Source: Winogradskyella sp. PG-2
GTDB lineage: Bacteria > Bacteroidota > Bacteroidia > Flavobacteriales > Flavobacteriaceae
Assembly (NCBI RefSeq): GCF_000828715.1
Contig: NZ_AP014583.1
Location: 742,001-806,000, forward strand
DNA: 64,000 bases
Direction of reading: 5' to 3'
The translations under genes and the position numbers were made by a program. The notes below the pieces were generated by a model. The model was not told the origin of the DNA. It did no database searches and saw only the letters and a program-made list of their open reading frames with translations. Below, piece by piece: positions 28,636 to 46,379 of this stretch (within the stretch, counting starts at the first letter, position 1; each line of letters begins with the position of its first letter).

Positions 28636-29718
28636 TTAATGGTTAATGACCTTCTCTTGATGGTTAATCGATTCTTGATGAATCGCCTTAAACATTCGTA
28701 AAATAAACTCTTCACTCAGTCCTCTTTCCTCACCTTCTAAGACCATTTTGCCTAAAATTTCGTTCCAACGTTTAGATTGTAAAACAGCAACATTCTTTTG
28801 TTTTTTAAGTTTCCCAATACCGTCAGCAACTTTCATTCGCTTCCCTAAAAGGTCTATGATTTGATTATCTACAACATCAATCTGAGCCCTTAAGTTATTA
28901 AGTTCTGAGTTGTACTCAGCTTCAGGATCTGACTCTTTTCTAATCTTTAAATCTTTCATCATTTGAACCAAGGTATTTGGTGTAACTTGCTGTGCAGCAT
29001 CACTCCAAGCATTATCAGGATCTGTATGCGTTTCGATCATTAAGCCATCAAAATTAAGATCTAAGGCAGTTTGAGACACATCAAAAACCATATCTCTCTT
29101 ACCTGTAATATGTGATGGGTCGTTAATTAGTGGTAAATCTGGAAACTTATTCTGAAACTCAATTGCCAATTGCCACTCTGGTATATTTCTATATTTAGAC
29201 TTTTCATAAGTTGAAAATCCTCTATGAATTGCACCTAAATTTTTAATACCTGCAGTATATAATCTTTCAATACCTCCTAACCATAGAGCTAAATCTGGGT
29301 TTACTGGATTCTTAACTAATACTATCTTATCAGTACCAGCTAAAGCATCTGCTAATTCTTGCATTATAAAAGGACTCACTGTAGAACGTGCACCAATCCA
29401 TAACAAATCTACATCGTGTTCTAATGCTAATTCTACATGATTTCTATTAGCAACTTCAGTACAAGTTTTCATTCCTGTTTCTGATTTTACTTTTTGCAAC
29501 CATTTTAAACCTAATGCTCCAACCCCTTCAAAATTTCCTGGACGCGTTCTTGGTTTCCAAATACCAGCTCTATAGTAGTTAACATCAGTATCTTTTAGCT
29601 CGTGAGCTATTTTTAACACTTGTTCTTCAGTCTCTGCGCTACATGGTCCTGCTATAACTAGTGGATGATTTAATTTCATATCATCCAACCATGTTCTCAT
29701 TTCTTTTTTATTTTCCAT
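28636..29718 (-). CDS. Bifunctional DAHP synthase / chorismate mutase
   Basis: The enzyme starts and later branches the aromatic pathway: DAHP synthase joins PEP and erythrose 4-phosphate, and chorismate mutase makes prephenate. The N-terminal part (about 1-265) has HPLVIAGPCSAETEEQVL, YRAGIWKPRTRPGNFEGVG, KTCTEVAN, NPVNPDLALWLGGIERLYTAG and INDPSHITGKRDMV, the KDO8P-synthase-like class of DAHP synthase. The C-terminal part (about 270-360) is an AroQ-type mutase (NLRAQIDVVDNQIIDLLGKRMKVADGIGKLKKQKNVAVLQSKRWNEIL). It is the last gene of the pheA operon. Confidence 0.93.
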   Translation of the reverse strand: MENKKEMRTWLDDMKLNHPLVIAGPCSAETEEQVLKIAHELKDTDVNYYRAGIWKPRTRPGNFEGVGALGLKWLQKVKSETGMKTCTEVANRNHVELALEHDVDLLWIGARSTVSPFIMQELADALAGTDKIVLVKNPVNPDLALWLGGIERLYTAGIKNLGAIHRGFSTYEKSKYRNIPEWQLAIEFQNKFPDLPLINDPSHITGKRDMVFDVSQTALDLNFDGLMIETHTDPDNAWSDAAQQVTPNTLVQMMKDLKIRKESDPEAEYNSELNNLRAQIDVVDNQIIDLLGKRMKVADGIGKLKKQKNVAVLQSKRWNEILGKMVLEGEERGLSEEFILRMFKAIHQESINHQEKVINH

Positions 29719-29746: not shown

Positions 29747-30598
29747 TTATTTAATTCCGTTTAATATGTCTGTTATATGATTCGTTGTTTCCATTTCTTT
29801 ATAAACTGCTTCAAAATCCCCATCTTCCATCAGTTTTTTAAAATGCTTAAGGTTATTTATATATTCATCTAAAGTTTCGATAACGTTAGTCTTATTTTGC
29901 TCAAAAATTGGTGTCCACATTGCTGGCGAACTTTTGGCTAAACGCACAGTACTTTCAAATCCACTACCCGCCATATCAAAAATATCGCGCTCATTTTTCT
30001 CTTTATCAATTACTGTTTTACCTAGCATAAATGAACTAATATGAGATAAATGAGATACATAGGCAATATGTTTGTCATGCGCTTTAGGATTCATATAACG
30101 AATTCGCATTCCTAATTCTGAAAATAACTTTAATGCTTTTTCTTGAAGCTTAAAAGCAGTTTCTTCTACCTCACAAATAATATTAGTTTTATTCTTATAT
30201 AGGCCATAAATCGCTGCACTTGGGCCCGAATATTCTGTACCTGCTATTGGATGTGCTGCTAAATAATTTCTGCGTTTTGGATGGTCTTTAACCTTAGTAC
30301 AAATATCTTCCTTAGTCGATCCAGCATCAAAAACAATTGCATGGTCTGAAACATTATCTAAAACTTTTGGCAATACTTTTAAAGTCGCATCAACCGGAAT
30401 CGCAACGACAACTAAATCTGCTTTATCTAAATCTTCGAGTTTTGATTTTTTATCAATAACACCTAATTCAATGGCTTCATTTAAATGTGCATCATCCTTA
30501 TCAATTCCATAGATTGTACATTCTGAATTTTGCTTTTTTATATCCAAAGCAAAACTGCCTCCAATTAAACCAACTCCTATGATAAAAATATGTTTCAT
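29747..30598 (-). CDS. tyrA: Prephenate dehydrogenase
   Basis: TyrA oxidatively decarboxylates prephenate to 4-hydroxyphenylpyruvate, the precursor of tyrosine. The 283-residue protein has the NAD-binding motif FIIGVGLIGGSFALDIK (GxGxxGG, residues 8-13), the catalytic-region HPIAGTEYSGP, and the helical C-terminal dimerisation domain with SHLSHISSFMLGKTV and AGSGFESTVRLAKSSPAMW. There is no mutase domain; that activity is on the adjacent DAHP synthase. It begins 3 bases after the aminotransferase stop. Confidence 0.93.
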   Translation of the reverse strand: MKHIFIIGVGLIGGSFALDIKKQNSECTIYGIDKDDAHLNEAIELGVIDKKSKLEDLDKADLVVVAIPVDATLKVLPKVLDNVSDHAIVFDAGSTKEDICTKVKDHPKRRNYLAAHPIAGTEYSGPSAAIYGLYKNKTNIICEVEETAFKLQEKALKLFSELGMRIRYMNPKAHDKHIAYVSHLSHISSFMLGKTVIDKEKNERDIFDMAGSGFESTVRLAKSSPAMWTPIFEQNKTNVIETLDEYINNLKHFKKLMEDGDFEAVYKEMETTNHITDILNGIK

Positions 30599-30601
30599 TT
30601 C

Positions 30602-31744
30602 TTATACCCTTGCTATTGCTTCTTTAATTACTTCTTCTGATGCACATAATGAAAAACGCACATATCCTTCTCCATTAGTCCCAAAAACTGTTCCTGGCGT
30701 TATAAATATGGAATGCTCTTTTAAAACTATATCTGTAAACGCTTCAGATTTTAAATTTGACGGCAATTTTGCCCAAACAAATAAACCTGTTGCATCTTTA
30801 TCGTAAGTACAATTGAGACTTTCTGCGAGTTTCCAAATCAATTCTCTCCTTAGTTGATAAACACTATTTAAACTTGCAAACCACATGTCAGAACATTTCA
30901 AAGCTTCAATAGATCCTTTTTGAATGCCATAAAACATACCCGAATCCATATTACTCTTAACTCTTAAAACAGCATTAATATGGTCGTAACTTCCAACCAA
31001 CATGCCTACTCTCCAACCAGCCATATTAAAGGTTTTGCTTAGAGAATTTAACTCTAAACAAACATCTTTTGCATTATTGTAACGCATAATGCTTATTGGC
31101 CTTTCATTCAACACAAAACTGTATGGATTATCGTTTACAATAAGAATATTATGGCGTTTAGCGAAAGCAATAACCTCATCATAAAACTTATTTGTGGCAT
31201 TTGCACCTGTTGGCATATGCGGATAATTTATCCACATAATTTTCACTTTGCTAAGGTCTAAACGTTCTAAAGCGATAAAATCTGGCAGCCAATTATTATC
31301 TTCATTTAAATCGTAATAGATAGGATTTGCTTCTAATAATTTTGTAACCGCACCATAAGTTGGATAACCTGGATTTGGTACTAAGGCTTCATCTCCAGGG
31401 TTTAAAAAAGCCATAGAAATGTGCATTATACCTTCCTTACTACCTAATAATGGTAATACTTCAGTCTTAGCGCTTAAGTTAACTCTATAACGCTTATTAT
31501 AAAAATTTGCAATTTCTTCTCGCAGTTCTGGTAATCCTTGATAACCCTGATATTTGTTTGCACCTTCATCATCTAAACTATCTCTTAACAACATCGTTGC
31601 CTTAAAAGGTGGTTCTAAGTCAGGACTTCCTATTCCTAAGTTTATAATTGGTTTTCCTTGCGATTTTAAAAACGCAACTTCTCTCAACTTTTTAGAAAAG
31701 TAGTATTCTTCTACATGCTTTAAACGGTTAGCAACTTCAATCAT
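30602..31744 (-). CDS. PLP-dependent aminotransferase of the aromatic operon
   Basis: The 380-residue fold-type I aminotransferase probably transaminates phenylpyruvate and 4-hydroxyphenylpyruvate (or prephenate). Motifs are INLGIGSPDLEPP, YQGYQGLPELREEIANFY, PLLGSKEGIMHISMAFLNPGDE, VPNPGYPTY, MWINYPHMPTGANAT, NDNPYSFV and the PLP lysine stretch LNSLSKTFNMAGWRVGM (about residue 235). It overlaps pheA by 4 bases and lies 3 bases before tyrA, so it belongs to aromatic synthesis even though the motif pattern also resembles LL-diaminopimelate aminotransferases. Confidence 0.88.
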   Translation of the reverse strand: MIEVANRLKHVEEYYFSKKLREVAFLKSQGKPIINLGIGSPDLEPPFKATMLLRDSLDDEGANKYQGYQGLPELREEIANFYNKRYRVNLSAKTEVLPLLGSKEGIMHISMAFLNPGDEALVPNPGYPTYGAVTKLLEANPIYYDLNEDNNWLPDFIALERLDLSKVKIMWINYPHMPTGANATNKFYDEVIAFAKRHNILIVNDNPYSFVLNERPISIMRYNNAKDVCLELNSLSKTFNMAGWRVGMLVGSYDHINAVLRVKSNMDSGMFYGIQKGSIEALKCSDMWFASLNSVYQLRRELIWKLAESLNCTYDKDATGLFVWAKLPSNLKSEAFTDIVLKEHSIFITPGTVFGTNGEGYVRFSLCASEEVIKEAIARV

Positions 31745-32568
31745 AATCTCGCATTTTTATATTCTCCCAACACTTTAAAATTCTCTGCCATTAATTGCAT
31801 AATTGAACTGGCTTTTTCGTAGTCTTTATAATCTTCAAAAGTAACATCTACAAAAAAAGCATACTTCCATGGAGTCTCAATTTTTGGCAATGATTGAATT
31901 TTAGTTAGGTTTAGTTTACAATCACTCATTACATTGAGTATTGTAGCTAAACTACCACGTTTATGATCTAATTCAAATTTTAGAGAGGCCTTATTAAGTT
32001 CTTTTCGTTCAGTTATTTGAATTTCACGTTTAACAATAACAAATCGTGTTTCATTATGTTTAATCGTCTGAATACTTTCTTCCAGCACATCAAGTTCATA
32101 TATTTTAGCTGCATTTTTACTTGCTATGGCTGCAATACCTTTTAGGTTTTGGTCAGAAATTTGCTTTGCTACATCTGCAGTATCCTGTGCTTCAACCAAT
32201 TTTATATGTGAATATTTCTTAAAAAACACTTTACATTGTAATAAAGCCATTGGGTGTGAATGCACCTCCTTAATTTCAGTTATCGACTGCCCATTTAAGG
32301 CTAGCAAATTATGCTGAATATCTAAGTAATGCTCTCCTACAATACTTAAGTTATGTGTATCAATAAGCGCATAGTTAGGAATAATAGAACCCGCTATTGA
32401 ATTCTCAAGTGCCATTACGATATGGTCTGTATCTCCATTTAGTAAATGATTTACAGTACCATCAAAAGACATACACTCAACTATTTCTGCTTTATCGCTA
32501 AAGTACACCTGTGCAACTTCGTGATGAAACGACCCTTTAATTCCTTGTATTGCTATTGGTTTTGTCAT
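31741..32568 (-). CDS. pheA: Prephenate dehydratase with ACT domain
   Basis: The enzyme converts prephenate to phenylpyruvate, committing it to phenylalanine. The 275-residue protein has the dehydratase domain (about 1-180; IQGIKGSFHHEVAQVYF, VMALENSIAGSIIPNYALI, CKVFFKKYSH, AAIASKNAAKIY and NETRFVIV, where TRF is the signature) and a C-terminal ACT domain (about 195-275; KFELDHKRGSLATILNVMSDCKLNLTKIQSLP) for phenylalanine feedback. It lacks the N-terminal mutase of the enterobacterial P-protein. It is first in the operon, and its ATG follows directly after the T tract of an attenuator hairpin and an aromatic leader peptide. Confidence 0.93.
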   Translation of the reverse strand: MTKPIAIQGIKGSFHHEVAQVYFSDKAEIVECMSFDGTVNHLLNGDTDHIVMALENSIAGSIIPNYALIDTHNLSIVGEHYLDIQHNLLALNGQSITEIKEVHSHPMALLQCKVFFKKYSHIKLVEAQDTADVAKQISDQNLKGIAAIASKNAAKIYELDVLEESIQTIKHNETRFVIVKREIQITERKELNKASLKFELDHKRGSLATILNVMSDCKLNLTKIQSLPKIETPWKYAFFVDVTFEDYKDYEKASSIMQLMAENFKVLGEYKNARL

Positions 32569-32571
32569 AAT

Positions 32572-32637
32572 AAAAAAGTCCCGATTTAAAATCGAGACTT
32601 AATAATTTATATTTTAATTAAAACATACTCGGTCTCG
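32572..32637 (-). promoter_or_regulatory. Transcription attenuator of the pheA operon
   Basis: Terminator: on the minus strand AAGTCTCGATTT (32600-32589) pairs with AAATCGGGACTT (32587-32576), with one T-G pair, followed by six T (32577-32572, the first two within the stem) and, 3 bases later, the pheA ATG. Antiterminator: CGAGAC (32637-32632), which begins 5 bases after the leader-peptide stop, is the exact complement of GTCTCG (32598-32593) in the first arm of the terminator. A ribosome at the leader stop codon would cover CGAGAC and let the terminator form. A ribosome stalled at the aromatic codons would leave it free to pair and break the terminator. The geometry is that of classical amino-acid attenuation. 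Confidence 0.85.
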
Positions 32638-32642
32638 TTCTT

Positions 32643-32693
32643 TTAGCTAAAAAAGAAATAAAACCAGTTATAATATGTTTTAGATATATTCAT
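32643..32693 (-). CDS. Aromatic leader peptide of the pheA operon (MNISKTYYNWFYFFFS)
   Basis: The minus strand at 32693-32643 reads ATG, then 15 codons, then TAA. The 16-residue product MNISKTYYNWFYFFFS has eight aromatic residues among nine consecutive positions (7-15): three Tyr, one Trp and four Phe. This is the signature of an attenuation leader peptide whose translation speed reports aromatic aminoacyl-tRNA supply. It lies 74 bases before the pheA ATG and 42 bases before the attenuator hairpin. Codons used are TAT for Tyr, TTT or TTC for Phe and TGG for Trp. The mix of Phe, Tyr and Trp fits an operon that makes both phenylalanine and tyrosine and contains the pathway entry enzyme. Confidence 0.88.
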   Translation of the reverse strand: MNISKTYYNWFYFFFS

Positions 32694-32819
32694 TGTTGTA
32701 TATAAGTGGCTAATGTAACTAATATTTTTATAAATCAGAATGTGAGGATTGCTTTTTTAAACTTATTATAAAAGTTTTAAAGAATTAGCAATAAACCTTA
32801 TACAATATTATATAATACT

Positions 32820-32827
32820 TATTTTTG
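32820..32827 (+). promoter_or_regulatory. Promoter -7 element for gldA
   Basis: TATTTTTG matches TAnnTTTG 17 bases before the gldA ATG. No clear -33 TTG. The leader would be about 12 bases. The remaining gene-free sequence between 32694 and 32819 is AT-rich, and I see no convincing promoter for the leader peptide there; TACATTAG on the minus strand is the nearest match. Confidence 0.4.
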
Positions 32828-32844
32828 AATAAACTTTTTCTAAC

Positions 32845-33738
32845 ATGTCGATTGAAGTTCAAAACATAACAAAACTATACAAAGAGCAAAAGGCACTAAA
32901 TAATGTTTCTTTTAAAGTGAATAATGCTGAAATTGTTGGTTTTCTTGGTCCTAATGGTGCAGGAAAATCTACAATGATGAAAATTTTGACCACATACATT
33001 GAAGCTTCTGAAGGTTCTGCTAATGTCAATGGGTTTGATGTTAATACGGATAAGAAAAGTGTACAAAGTTCTGTTGGCTATTTGCCAGAGCATAACCCAC
33101 TTTATACAGACTTATATGTTAAAGAGTATCTAAATTTTAATGCCAATGTTTACGGTACTTCTAAATCTAGAATTGAAGAGGTCATTGAATTAACTGGTTT
33201 GTCACCCGAAGCTCATAAGAAAATTGGTCAGCTTTCTAAAGGTTATAGGCAGCGTGTTGGCCTGGCAAATGCCTTATTACATAATCCTGATGTTTTAATT
33301 TTAGACGAACCCACTACAGGATTAGACCCTAACCAATTGGTAGATATTAGAAACCTAATTAAAACTATAGGTAAAGAAAAAACAGTTTTCCTCTCCACAC
33401 ATATAATGCAAGAAGTTGAAGCCATGTGTGACCGCGTAATTATTATCAATAGAGGAGAAGTTGTAGCTGATAAGTATTTAAAAGATTTACGTGAAGGACA
33501 AGAGCAAATTGTTATTGTTGAGTTTGATTACAGAGTCGAGGATGCTTTTTTATTAAAATTACCTAAAGTATCTTCTGTAAAAAACACCCATGGTTTTATT
33601 TACGAAATTACATTTTCAACCAAAGAAGATATGCGATCTCATGTTTTTGATTTTGCACACGATAAGGACTTAAAAATTCTTCAACTCAATCAGAAAAATG
33701 CAAGTTTAGAGAGCCTATTTAGGGAAATGACTAGTTAA
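32845..33738 (+). CDS. gldA: ABC transporter ATP-binding protein, GldA-like
   Basis: The 297-residue ATPase has Walker A GPNGAGKST (about residues 36-44), Q-loop region VGYLPEHNPLYTDLYVKEYL, signature LSKGYRQRVGLANALL, Walker B VLILDEPTTGLDPNQ and the H-loop FLSTHIMQEVEAM, followed by a C-terminal regulatory region of about 80 residues. The sequence looks like GldA, the ATPase of the GldAFG complex linked to gliding motility. The partner permeases gldF and gldG are not adjacent, as is usual. It ends 8 bases into the convergent GIN-domain gene. Confidence 0.85.
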   Translation: MSIEVQNITKLYKEQKALNNVSFKVNNAEIVGFLGPNGAGKSTMMKILTTYIEASEGSANVNGFDVNTDKKSVQSSVGYLPEHNPLYTDLYVKEYLNFNANVYGTSKSRIEEVIELTGLSPEAHKKIGQLSKGYRQRVGLANALLHNPDVLILDEPTTGLDPNQLVDIRNLIKTIGKEKTVFLSTHIMQEVEAMCDRVIIINRGEVVADKYLKDLREGQEQIVIVEFDYRVEDAFLLKLPKVSSVKNTHGFIYEITFSTKEDMRSHVFDFAHDKDLKILQLNQKNASLESLFREMTS

Positions 33739-43474: not shown

Positions 43475-44644
43475 TTAATTTTCTAATGCTTGTTTTAAAT
43501 CCCCAATAATATCATCTATATGTTCTAAACCAACCGAAACTCTAATAAGTCCACTAGTAATTCCTGTAATTAAACGATCTTCTTCAGATAATTTTGCATG
43601 TGTCGTAGATGCTGGATGTGTTACGATACTTCTTGTATCACCTAAATTAGCAGATAAAGACAATAGTTTAATTGTATTTAAAAAATTTCTTCCGGCATCA
43701 ATACCACCTTTAATTTCAAAAGCCACAATATTACCGCCTAATTTCATTTGCTTTTTAGCCAGTTTATATTGAGGGTGAGATTTTAAAAATGGGTATTTCA
43801 CAAAATTCACATGATCATTTGATTCTAAAAATTCCGCCACATTTAATGCATTATCACAATGCATATTTATTCTAGCTGGCAAAGTTTCTAAACTCTTAGA
43901 CAAGACCCAAGCATTAAAGGGTGACAAAGCCGGACCTGTATTTCTAGAAAATAAATAAATCTTTTGAATTAAATCTGAATTTCCAACGGTTACACCTCCA
44001 AGAACTCTACCTTGTCCATCTATTAATTTTGTAGCTGAATGAATAACTAGATCAGCACCAAACTTTATAGGTTGTTGGAGATAAGGTGTCGCGAAACAAT
44101 TATCAACTAGGAAAATAAGGTTATGCTTCTTAGCAATACTACCCAGTAGCTCTAAATCTAAAATATCTACAGCCGGATTTGTTGGGCTTTCCGTATACAA
44201 TATTTTCGTATTGGGCTGTATTAAACTTTCAATTTTGTCTATTTCATCTATCTTAAAAGAGCTTGTTGAAATATTCCATTTTGGTAAAATGTTATTAAAC
44301 ATAGTCTGGGTAGAACCAAAAATACTCCGCGAAAACACAATATGATCTCCTGAGTTGAGTAAAGCTGCAAAAGTTGAAAACACAGCAGACATACCAGATG
44401 CAAAGGCATAACCTTGTTCGGCACCTTCCATCTTACAGATCTTATCTATAAACTCTGATGTATTGGGATTAGAATAGCGACTATAAATGTTACGCACTTT
44501 CTCATCGGCAAACGATGCTCTCATATCTTCAGCATCTTCAAATACATAACTTGATGTAAGATATAAGGGGTTAGAATGTTCTAAAAATTGAGAACGTTCA
44601 ATTTGTGTTCGGATGGCTTGTGTTTCTATGTGTTTAGAACTCAT
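43475..44644 (-). CDS. metZ: O-succinylhomoserine sulfhydrylase (trans-sulfuration family)
   Basis: The 389-residue PLP enzyme makes homocysteine from an activated homoserine and sulfide. Family motifs: NPLYLTSSYVFEDAEDM, RYSNPNTSEFIDKICKMEGAE, FASGMSAVFSTFAAL, DNCFATPYLQQPIKFGADLVIHSATKLIDGQGR with the PLP lysine at about residue 205, and the C-terminal SVGLEHIDDIIGDLKQAL. MetZ and cystathionine gamma-synthase (MetB) look alike; the neighbouring sulfide-producing operon favours direct sulfhydrylation. It is preceded by a SAM-I riboswitch (44784-44869). Confidence 0.88.
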   Translation of the reverse strand: MSSKHIETQAIRTQIERSQFLEHSNPLYLTSSYVFEDAEDMRASFADEKVRNIYSRYSNPNTSEFIDKICKMEGAEQGYAFASGMSAVFSTFAALLNSGDHIVFSRSIFGSTQTMFNNILPKWNISTSSFKIDEIDKIESLIQPNTKILYTESPTNPAVDILDLELLGSIAKKHNLIFLVDNCFATPYLQQPIKFGADLVIHSATKLIDGQGRVLGGVTVGNSDLIQKIYLFSRNTGPALSPFNAWVLSKSLETLPARINMHCDNALNVAEFLESNDHVNFVKYPFLKSHPQYKLAKKQMKLGGNIVAFEIKGGIDAGRNFLNTIKLLSLSANLGDTRSIVTHPASTTHAKLSEEDRLITGITSGLIRVSVGLEHIDDIIGDLKQALEN

Positions 44645-45125: not shown

Positions 45126-46379
45126 ATGCCATATTTATTTACTTCAGAAAGTGTTTCTGAAGGCCATCCAGATAAAGTAGCTGATCAAATTAGTGACGCT
45201 TTAATTGACAATTTTTTAGCTTTTGACCCAGAATCTAAAGTAGCTTGTGAGACATTAGTTACCACTGGTCAAGTTATTCTTGCTGGTGAAGTTAAATCTA
45301 ACACTTATTTAGATGTTCAGAAAATAGCAAGAGACACTATAAATAAAATAGGATATACAAAAAGCGAATATATGTTCGATGGAAATTCCTGTGGTGTTTT
45401 ATCTGCCATACATGAACAATCTGAAGATATTAATCGTGGTGTAGATCGTGCTTCTAAAGAAGAACAAGGAGCAGGTGACCAAGGAATGATGTTTGGTTAT
45501 GCCACAAACGAAACTGATAACTATATGCCATTGGCTTTAGATTTATCGCACAGAATTTTAAAGGAATTAGCTGAATTACGTCGCGAGAATAAATATATTA
45601 CCTATTTACGACCAGATTCTAAAAGCCAAGTTACTATAGAATATAGCGATGATAATACACCTCAACGTATTGATGCTATTGTTGTTTCTACTCAACACGA
45701 TGATTTTGGTACTGATGATGTAATGTTAACAAAAATCAGAAAAGATATTGTTGACATCTTAATTCCAAGAGTTGTTGCTAAAGTTCCAGACCATATTAAA
45801 CCTTTATTTAATAGTGATATTAAATATCATATTAACCCAACAGGGAAATTCGTAATCGGAGGACCTCATGGTGATACAGGTTTAACAGGTCGTAAAATTA
45901 TTGTAGATACTTATGGCGGAAAAGGAGCACATGGTGGTGGAGCATTTTCTGGTAAAGATCCGAGTAAAGTGGACCGAAGTGCAGCTTACGCAACAAGACA
46001 TATTGCTAAAAACCTAGTTGCTGCTGGTTTATGTGATGAAGTTTTGGTACAGGTATCTTATGCTATTGGAGTTGTAGAACCTATGGGTATTTTTATAGAT
46101 ACTTATGGTACTTGTGATTTTAATTTAACAGATGGTGAAATCGCTAAAAAAGTAGAAGCCATTTTTGATATGAGACCTTCTGCAATTGAAAGTCGTTTAA
46201 AACTACGCCAACCAATTTATAGTGAAACCGCAGCATATGGACATATGGGAAGAAACAATGAAGTAGTTTCTAAAACTTTTGTCCAACCACTTGGTGAATC
46301 AATTTCTATGGATGTTGAATTATTTACATGGGAAAAATTAGATTACGTAGACAAAGTTAAAGCAGCATTTGACCTTTAA
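45126..46379 (+). CDS. metK: S-adenosylmethionine synthetase
   Basis: MetK makes SAM from methionine and ATP. The 417-residue protein has [26 protein letters not shown] at the start (HPD for ATP contact), [16 protein letters not shown] (loop motif), [24 protein letters not shown] and [32 protein letters not shown], all signatures of the family. It is divergent from metZ across a 481-base gap holding a riboswitch for each gene. A terminator follows it. Confidence 0.96.

Follow-up and report, generated by a model that had tools for sequence, protein, structure and literature searches.

A predicted Phe/Tyr-reading attenuator, with optional Trp input, before the pheA operon of Flavobacteriaceae

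The window considered here, the whole stretch of 64 kb that was analysed, belongs to a genome of 3.81 Mb in a single contig, whose nearest named relatives by PheA are Winogradskyella. On its minus strand lies an operon for aromatic amino acid synthesis that opens with pheA, encoding prephenate dehydratase (31741..32568; PF00800, 1.3e-54), and continues with a class I/II aminotransferase (30602..31744; PF00155), tyrA for prephenate dehydrogenase (29747..30598; PF02153 and PF20463, with NF006307 above its cut-off), and a DAHP synthase fused to chorismate mutase (28636..29718; PF00793 and PF01817). An earlier note, made from the sequence alone, had placed the entry enzyme of the pathway in this operon, and the Pfam assignments to the last gene bear this out. 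The same arrangement, pheA-aminotransferase-tyrA-DAHP synthase/chorismate mutase, occurs in 76 of 109 loci of a genus-level set; another 28 show pheA-aminotransferase-tyrA within a shorter available sequence, and the other five differ.

Upstream of pheA, and on the same strand, is an ORF of 16 codons, MNISKTYYNWFYFFFS (32643..32693), with its ATG at 32693, AGC as its last codon and TAA at 32645-32643. Its codons for Tyr Tyr Asn Trp Phe Tyr Phe Phe Phe (32649..32675) make up region 1, the regulatory codons of the putative attenuator. This is the 16-residue aromatic leader peptide that the earlier note had described, and the count of eight aromatics in nine positions is correct for YYNWFYFFF. 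The neighboring features that it named are likewise in place: the leader stop is followed by a 5-nt spacer, AAGAA, and then by CGAGAC at 32637-32632; the complementary GTCTCG at 32598-32593 lies inside the 5′ arm of a terminator hairpin; and the terminator ends 3 bases before pheA, with its T run followed by ATT and then by the ATG at 32568. Among short ATG ORFs (7-45 codons) on both strands of the window, eight aromatics in nine is unique to the leader, the runners-up being six ORFs with six in nine each. When the 400 nt before pheA were dinucleotide-shuffled 5000 times, a run of this density arose twice, and the predicted folding energy of RNA 32700-32566 is -30.4 kcal/mol, versus -15.25 for shuffles (sd 2.87; z -5.28).

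No Shine-Dalgarno-like sequence was seen by eye before the leader ORF. Motif conservation marks a putative -7 promoter box of the TAnnTTnG type, TACATTAG, at 32710..32717 (minus strand); in 97 of 106 genera a box of this type is found in the 45 nt that precede the leader ATG (median distance 17 nt), versus 458 of 5300 mononucleotide shuffles. Since the box is placed at -12 to -5 from the transcript start in the available text of PMC9723704, transcription would begin approximately 12 nt before the leader ATG.

The earlier note had proposed aligning the pheA leaders of related flavobacteria for a conserved short ORF with aromatic codons and for matching helices, and the short ORF proved to be widespread. 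Close relatives were represented by the best 80 of 382, on named contigs; in 78 of them at least six aromatics in nine precede pheA, one of these, L064, with a GTG start only, and the two leaderless relatives, L045 and L062, retain just ~150 and ~130 nt of upstream sequence on their contigs. PheA matches were found in 178 of 199 Flavobacteriaceae genomes searched, and 107 of these 178, together with the window, made up a genus-level set of 108 loci, one per genus; the genomes outside the set were mostly lower-scoring, L082 was excluded as belonging to the same genus, and L087 was excluded for its short contig end. Of these 108 loci, 104 carry an ATG ORF with six or more aromatics in nine no farther than 400 nt from pheA, and 106 carry one with five or more, whereas the threshold of six is reached by 39 of 2160 shuffles and by 1 of 108 antisense strands. 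Of the two loci below five, L161 has its leader 457 nt upstream of pheA, beyond the scanned stretch, and in L177 the genus-level scan found no aromatic leader element. Judging from these sequence comparisons, the aromatic ORF before pheA is not due to chance.

What is conserved in the leader is its aromatic content. Close relatives mostly keep TY[YF][NS]W[FY][YF]FFF or a near variant, and departures from the commonest residue, counted as sequences rather than events over 98 distinct leader DNAs in the [NS]W register, are aromatic in 55 cases and non-aromatic in 32. By the codon table, seven of the eight amino-acid changes one base from TTT are non-aromatic. Both TTT/TTC and TAT/TAC are found at most leader positions in the same 98 DNAs. 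Between genera the residue order varies while the composition is kept, as in MVQTAYNWNFYFFFFYFFKGRTGRL, MSNKTLHTAFYFWYFFFLK, MNNFSTFYNYWFFYFRKEIGKPM and also MKLFNTYYFGYFYYFSKSRG, a pattern that suits codon reading. The 106 genus-level leaders have medians of 5 Phe, 4 Tyr and 1 Trp; Phe and Tyr are both present in all 106, while Trp is present in 67 and absent from 39, with at least 21 switches between the two states on a PheA FastTree. Asn ranks third among the residues of the aromatic run, with 143 counted over the 12-residue stretches of the 106 leaders, and over whole leaders it is encoded by AAC 171 times and by AAT 62 times.

Downstream of the leader codons are the arms of two alternative structures. 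Region 2, the 5′ arm of the antiterminator, is AAGAACGAGACCGAGT (32627..32642, minus strand, with the core CGAGAC at 32632-32637), as defined by duplex prediction, a swap test and a hexamer table. Region 3, recognized from the fold, the duplex prediction and the hexamer table, lies at 32590..32600 with GTCTCG at 32593-32598 and serves both as the 3′ arm of the antiterminator and as the 5′ arm of the terminator; region 4, the terminator 3′ arm in the fold, occupies 32576..32586, and the U tract of six T occupies 32572..32577. The predicted terminator hairpin of the window thus has 11 bp, 32600-32590 with 32586-32576, and a loop of 3. In a minimum-energy fold without a ribosome, the leader codons pair with region 2 in a predicted 1:2 hairpin (32619..32682, minus strand).

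Both the terminator and the complementarity of the antiterminator are maintained in relatives. A hairpin with a U run at or below -8 kcal/mol lies downstream of the aromatic run in all 106 genera, versus 26 of 1060 shuffles; two loci, L110 and L151, in which the terminator picks look wrong, are retained in the counts. Region 2/region 3 duplexes of the same genus average -12.26 kcal/mol, versus -9.61 when the arms are swapped between genera, and the mean of the genus's own duplexes was reached by none of 2000 permutations, in a test that ignores kinship between genera. The core hexamers vary in step: 29 genera combine GTCTCG with CGAGAC, 17 combine GTCCCG with CGGGAC, and the remaining genera carry other or GU-containing combinations, including a minor class, GTCCTG (10 genera), that is poorly matched and without a perfect Watson-Crick hexamer. 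The two labelled variable pairs are Watson-Crick matched in 86 of 101 genera and unmatched in 15 (5 of 106 were unlabelled). The helix matching and the terminator that the earlier note had proposed to seek in relatives are both found. On the PheA FastTree, the labels of regions 2 and 3 change 14 times or more each, and an underpowered test of independent branch pairs returned just 5 and 3 supported pairs of matched changes in the two regions.

The placement of the leader relative to these arms was examined with a geometry model in which the leading edge of the ribosome lies 12 nt from the first base of the A-site codon and the remaining RNA adopts its minimum-energy fold. With the ribosome at an aromatic codon, the antiterminator can form at 0.976 of 958 codons from 106 genera; with the ribosome at the stop codon, it is blocked in 104 of 106 genera. 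The ribosome geometry that attenuation needs is thus present in the model. The share of genera in which the antiterminator can form is 0.97 with the ribosome at the last aromatic codon, 0.48 two codons farther and 0.11 three codons farther, and according to the model the aromatic run ends where a ribosome would start covering the antiterminator. With edges from 10 to 15 nt the aromatic-codon share is still 0.976, and the number of genera that retain the antiterminator with the ribosome at the stop lies between 1 and 4. Most genera have an ORF that continues over region 2, with a median of 27 nt from the last aromatic codon to the end of the stop. The window is one of the two exceptions to closure at the stop: its ORF stops early, and a ribosome at the stop leaves 5-6 antiterminator pairs in place until its edge is set as far as 16 nt, so that shut-off may be leakier, and basal readthrough higher, than in most genera. 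Within the limits of such modelling, both the starvation arm and the shut-off arm of the attenuator model are well supported.

Taken together, these features very probably represent ribosome-mediated transcription attenuation of the pheA-aminotransferase-tyrA-DAHP synthase/chorismate mutase operon, a reading drawn from comparison of the conservation and coding character of the ORF, the terminator, the complementarity of the antiterminator, the spacing, and the operon content. A ribosome would load on the leader ORF soon after transcription begins. When charged tRNA-Phe or tRNA-Tyr (here also tRNA-Trp) is scarce, it would stall on one of the eight aromatic codons, leaving region 2 (AAGAACGAGACC) free to pair with region 3 (GTCTCGATT); the 3:4 terminator would then not form in time, and RNA polymerase would enter the pheA operon. 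When the aromatic codons are read fast, the ribosome at the end of the ORF would cover region 2, the terminator would form and the operon would be off. Because all of the aromatic codons lie upstream of the same switch point, a shortage of any one of the amino acids should open the switch. The leader could thus act as an OR gate, in which Phe and Tyr are constant inputs and Trp is optional.

Other mechanisms could conceivably use the same elements. TnaC provides a precedent for an arrest peptide that responds to free Trp, and the pheA leader peptide might similarly stall the ribosome on binding free Phe, Tyr or Trp, with slow codons playing no part. A long hydrophobic aromatic run could contact the exit tunnel, and the peptide is fairly constant among close relatives; however, the order of its residues is reshuffled between genera while the composition is kept, as codon reading predicts, and before biosynthetic genes a free amino acid should close, rather than open, the switch. 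Nor does the drifting order preserve TnaC-like residues at a fixed distance from a stall site. We therefore consider nascent-peptide arrest very unlikely. Equally improbable is translational control, in which the 3:4 hairpin would hide the start site of pheA and transcription would not be terminated. Such a lock is suggested in the window by the hairpin and U run adjoining the pheA start codon (3 nt), but the hairpin and U run persist in every one of the 106 genera while their distance from the pheA start ranges from 0 to 156 nt (median 28; 185 loci), and a hairpin kept at a variable distance is what would be expected of a terminator and not of a start-site lock.

A closer rival accepts the attenuator and concerns only its inputs. 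The earlier note had suggested one signal that mixes Phe, Tyr and Trp codons and could read general aromatic starvation. The mixed signal stands for the window's genus; as a general statement it does not, given the leaders without Trp, and the proposed sensor is better recast as one of Phe/Tyr starvation that has an optional third input from Trp. A WWW leader of its own precedes trpE in 28 of 30 Flavobacteriaceae loci (L295-L324; the best-scoring 30 of 45 genomes), and in the window's genome the trpE leader is MKTKTNHTWWWNFSNLCS, followed by a terminator by eye (L232, minus strand). Trp would accordingly be sensed by a leader of its own, and the mixed signal of the pheA leader would belong to the Phe/Tyr branch and the entry enzyme. 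It is possible, though we hold it to be the less probable view, that the sensor reads Phe and Tyr only, that the Trp codon is irrelevant as a signal, and that Trp limitation has no real effect; TGG would then be retained by descent or since its two G pair with region 2. The frequent absence of Trp, its repeated gain or loss on the PheA tree, and the separate trpE leader all agree with this, as does the pairing of the GG of TGG with the CC of region 2 in the 1:2 hairpin fold of the window. On the other hand, a stall at Trp opens the switch like a stall at other codons (0.985 of 68 Trp codons in the geometry model), and the operon contains DAHP synthase, which also feeds Trp synthesis.

Ribosome-free folds bear on a further arm of the classical model. 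When the transcript ends after region 3, the predicted fold contains the antiterminator, and not the 1:2 hairpin, in 65 of 106 genera, and these folds do not generally support the E. coli rule by which an untranslated leader terminates, while at full length the terminator wins in 105 of 106 genera. One idea, that leaders with an early stop are offset by a stronger 1:2 hairpin, was discarded: in ribosome-free folds of the window and L002-L082, the antiterminator persists in 20 of 33 early-stop and in 28 of 47 late-stop leaders.

A riboswitch or T-box was also considered and rejected, as none is among the eight Rfam matches at 32500-32860 with E up to 10. The scan of the leader site gave no family above its cut-off, and the Trp_leader family (RF00513) was set aside at 15.3 bits against a cut-off of 41 (E 1.8). 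The only Rfam hits above cut-off in the 64-kb window are SAM and SAM-II, at 44.7-45.1 kb, where two classes of SAM riboswitch lie back to back. The SAM element (S box, RF00162; 44746-44868, minus strand) precedes a gene at 43475-44644 (minus strand) whose product resembles, by eye, a PLP-dependent enzyme acting in Cys/Met metabolism; SAM-II (RF01726; 44994-45053, plus strand) precedes a gene at 45126-46379 (plus strand) that by eye is SAM synthetase-like.

Beyond Flavobacteriaceae, the leader is found less uniformly, in counts that compare groups of differing base composition without correction. Among other families of Flavobacteriales, at least six aromatics in nine were found in 6 of 17 loci (17 of 41 matches), and five in 2 more. 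The nine leaderless loci comprise four from genomes of ~600 kb, four with a distant PheA and one other. In the ~600-kb genomes (L198-L201), no aromatic leader lies within 560 nt of pheA, while pheA-aminotransferase-tyrA-DAHP synthase/chorismate mutase is kept, and attenuator control has apparently been lost in these reduced genomes. For the four loci with a distant PheA, no operon partner was found in the available stretch; our guess is that these genomes are Weeksellaceae. Elsewhere in the Bacteroidia, the leader is present in 19 of 30 loci (30 of 34 matches) and five aromatics in 2 more, and many of the loci that were folded show by eye clear terminators with matching arms. Other classes of the phylum gave no leader near pheA in 29 loci taken from the best-scoring of 138 matching genomes, with 12 of the 29 coming from one family. 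One of the loci from these classes, L247, has a chance aromatic ORF far upstream of pheA.

One locus from this survey, L229 (G365:C11:530910-534500), has two aromatic leaders, MLQTRFFFGYYYFYAAA and MVPTQQVFFTYGYYFFYLKKPARCCQC, in tandem from ~306 to 80 nt upstream of pheA. Each is followed by a terminator-like hairpin (the first by eye), and pheA-aminotransferase-tyrA lies downstream. If true, the tandem modules would act as an AND of two gates.

Ribosome-mediated attenuation is a textbook mechanism that was worked out in enterobacteria, where the pheL leader of E. coli reads Phe only and trpL reads Trp only, and where leaders for multiple amino acids are known from ilvGMEDA and thr. Like the attenuators of E. 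coli pheA and trp, the flavobacterial element combines a leader ORF of cognate codons, an alternative antiterminator and an intrinsic terminator before the first gene. Unlike pheL and trpL, however, its leader mixes Phe, Tyr and often Trp, and it further differs from the E. coli systems in its probable transcript start so near the ATG, in a leader ORF where no Shine-Dalgarno was seen, in its Bacteroidota-type promoter box and, with respect to trp, in the lack of a sequence relation suggested by the low Trp_leader score. In reading several amino acids of one branched pathway through one leader, it resembles the leaders of ilvGMEDA and thr, which read branched-chain amino acids or Thr/Ile where the present one reads aromatic amino acids.

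Work on Bacteroidota has already pointed in this direction. For Bacteroides thetaiotaomicron, Table 7 of PMC1173090 (2005) lists a predicted attenuator before pheA>hisHb>aroAI-beta-aroQ>tyrA, a gene set almost identical to the present one and from the same phylum; in the available text it is a prediction taken from an attenuator website, with no mention of a leader peptide. Short ORFs recalling leader peptides have also been described in long 5′ UTRs of B. thetaiotaomicron, according to the available passages of PMC7366714. As the accessible part of PMC9723704 (2021) reports, amino-acid operons of Flavobacterium psychrophilum show strong signs of upstream leader-peptide attenuation, and a structured 5′ element precedes pheA; the pheA and hisG elements are said to occur in other genera as well and to have no Rfam hits. 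That pheA element precedes the same gene in the same family and is very probably the same element as the attenuator of the window; its description, in the text available, gives no leader peptide, codons or helices, and the supplement may already contain the peptide. Until their own Firmicutes case in 2010, the authors of PMC2965389, in the passages available, knew of leader-peptide systems in Proteobacteria and Actinobacteria only, except for the ermC leader. For Actinobacteria, the available part of PMC1262725 reports that no conserved RNA structure was found ahead of operons for Phe or Tyr. On these partial sources, attenuation of the pheA operon in Bacteroidota is not undescribed, with hints for B. 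thetaiotaomicron and F. psychrophilum. Titles, openings of abstracts and available passages (including PMC4833913) yielded no description of a mixed Phe/Tyr/Trp leader. What is new is the Phe+Tyr(+Trp) input and its taxonomic reach, the kind of attenuator being already known.

The window's genome also has a His-rich leader before hisG, MIFIQTHHHFHTIVQAS, that is followed by a terminator-like hairpin by eye (L235, minus strand). With some confidence, we favor a broader picture in which the Bacteroidia possess an old, multi-input attenuator of the Phe/Tyr operon that acts as an OR gate beside the single-input leaders of trpE (WWW) and hisG (His-rich), so that these bacteria without Shine-Dalgarno sequences would still rely on tight coupling of transcription and translation, and in which the tandem modules of L229 would work as an AND. 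By comparison, attenuation appears to be a regular means of control in numerous genera of a large class with mRNAs that have no Shine-Dalgarno sequences, and the combined Phe+Tyr(+Trp) signal precedes an operon that holds the entry enzyme of the pathway. The system would offer a natural test of transcription-translation coupling in Bacteroidia and of how one leader weighs several amino acids, and since the aromatic run ends sharply at the switch point, clear predictions follow for single codons. Finally, the findings suggest a simple annotation rule for the amino-acid operons of flavobacteria.
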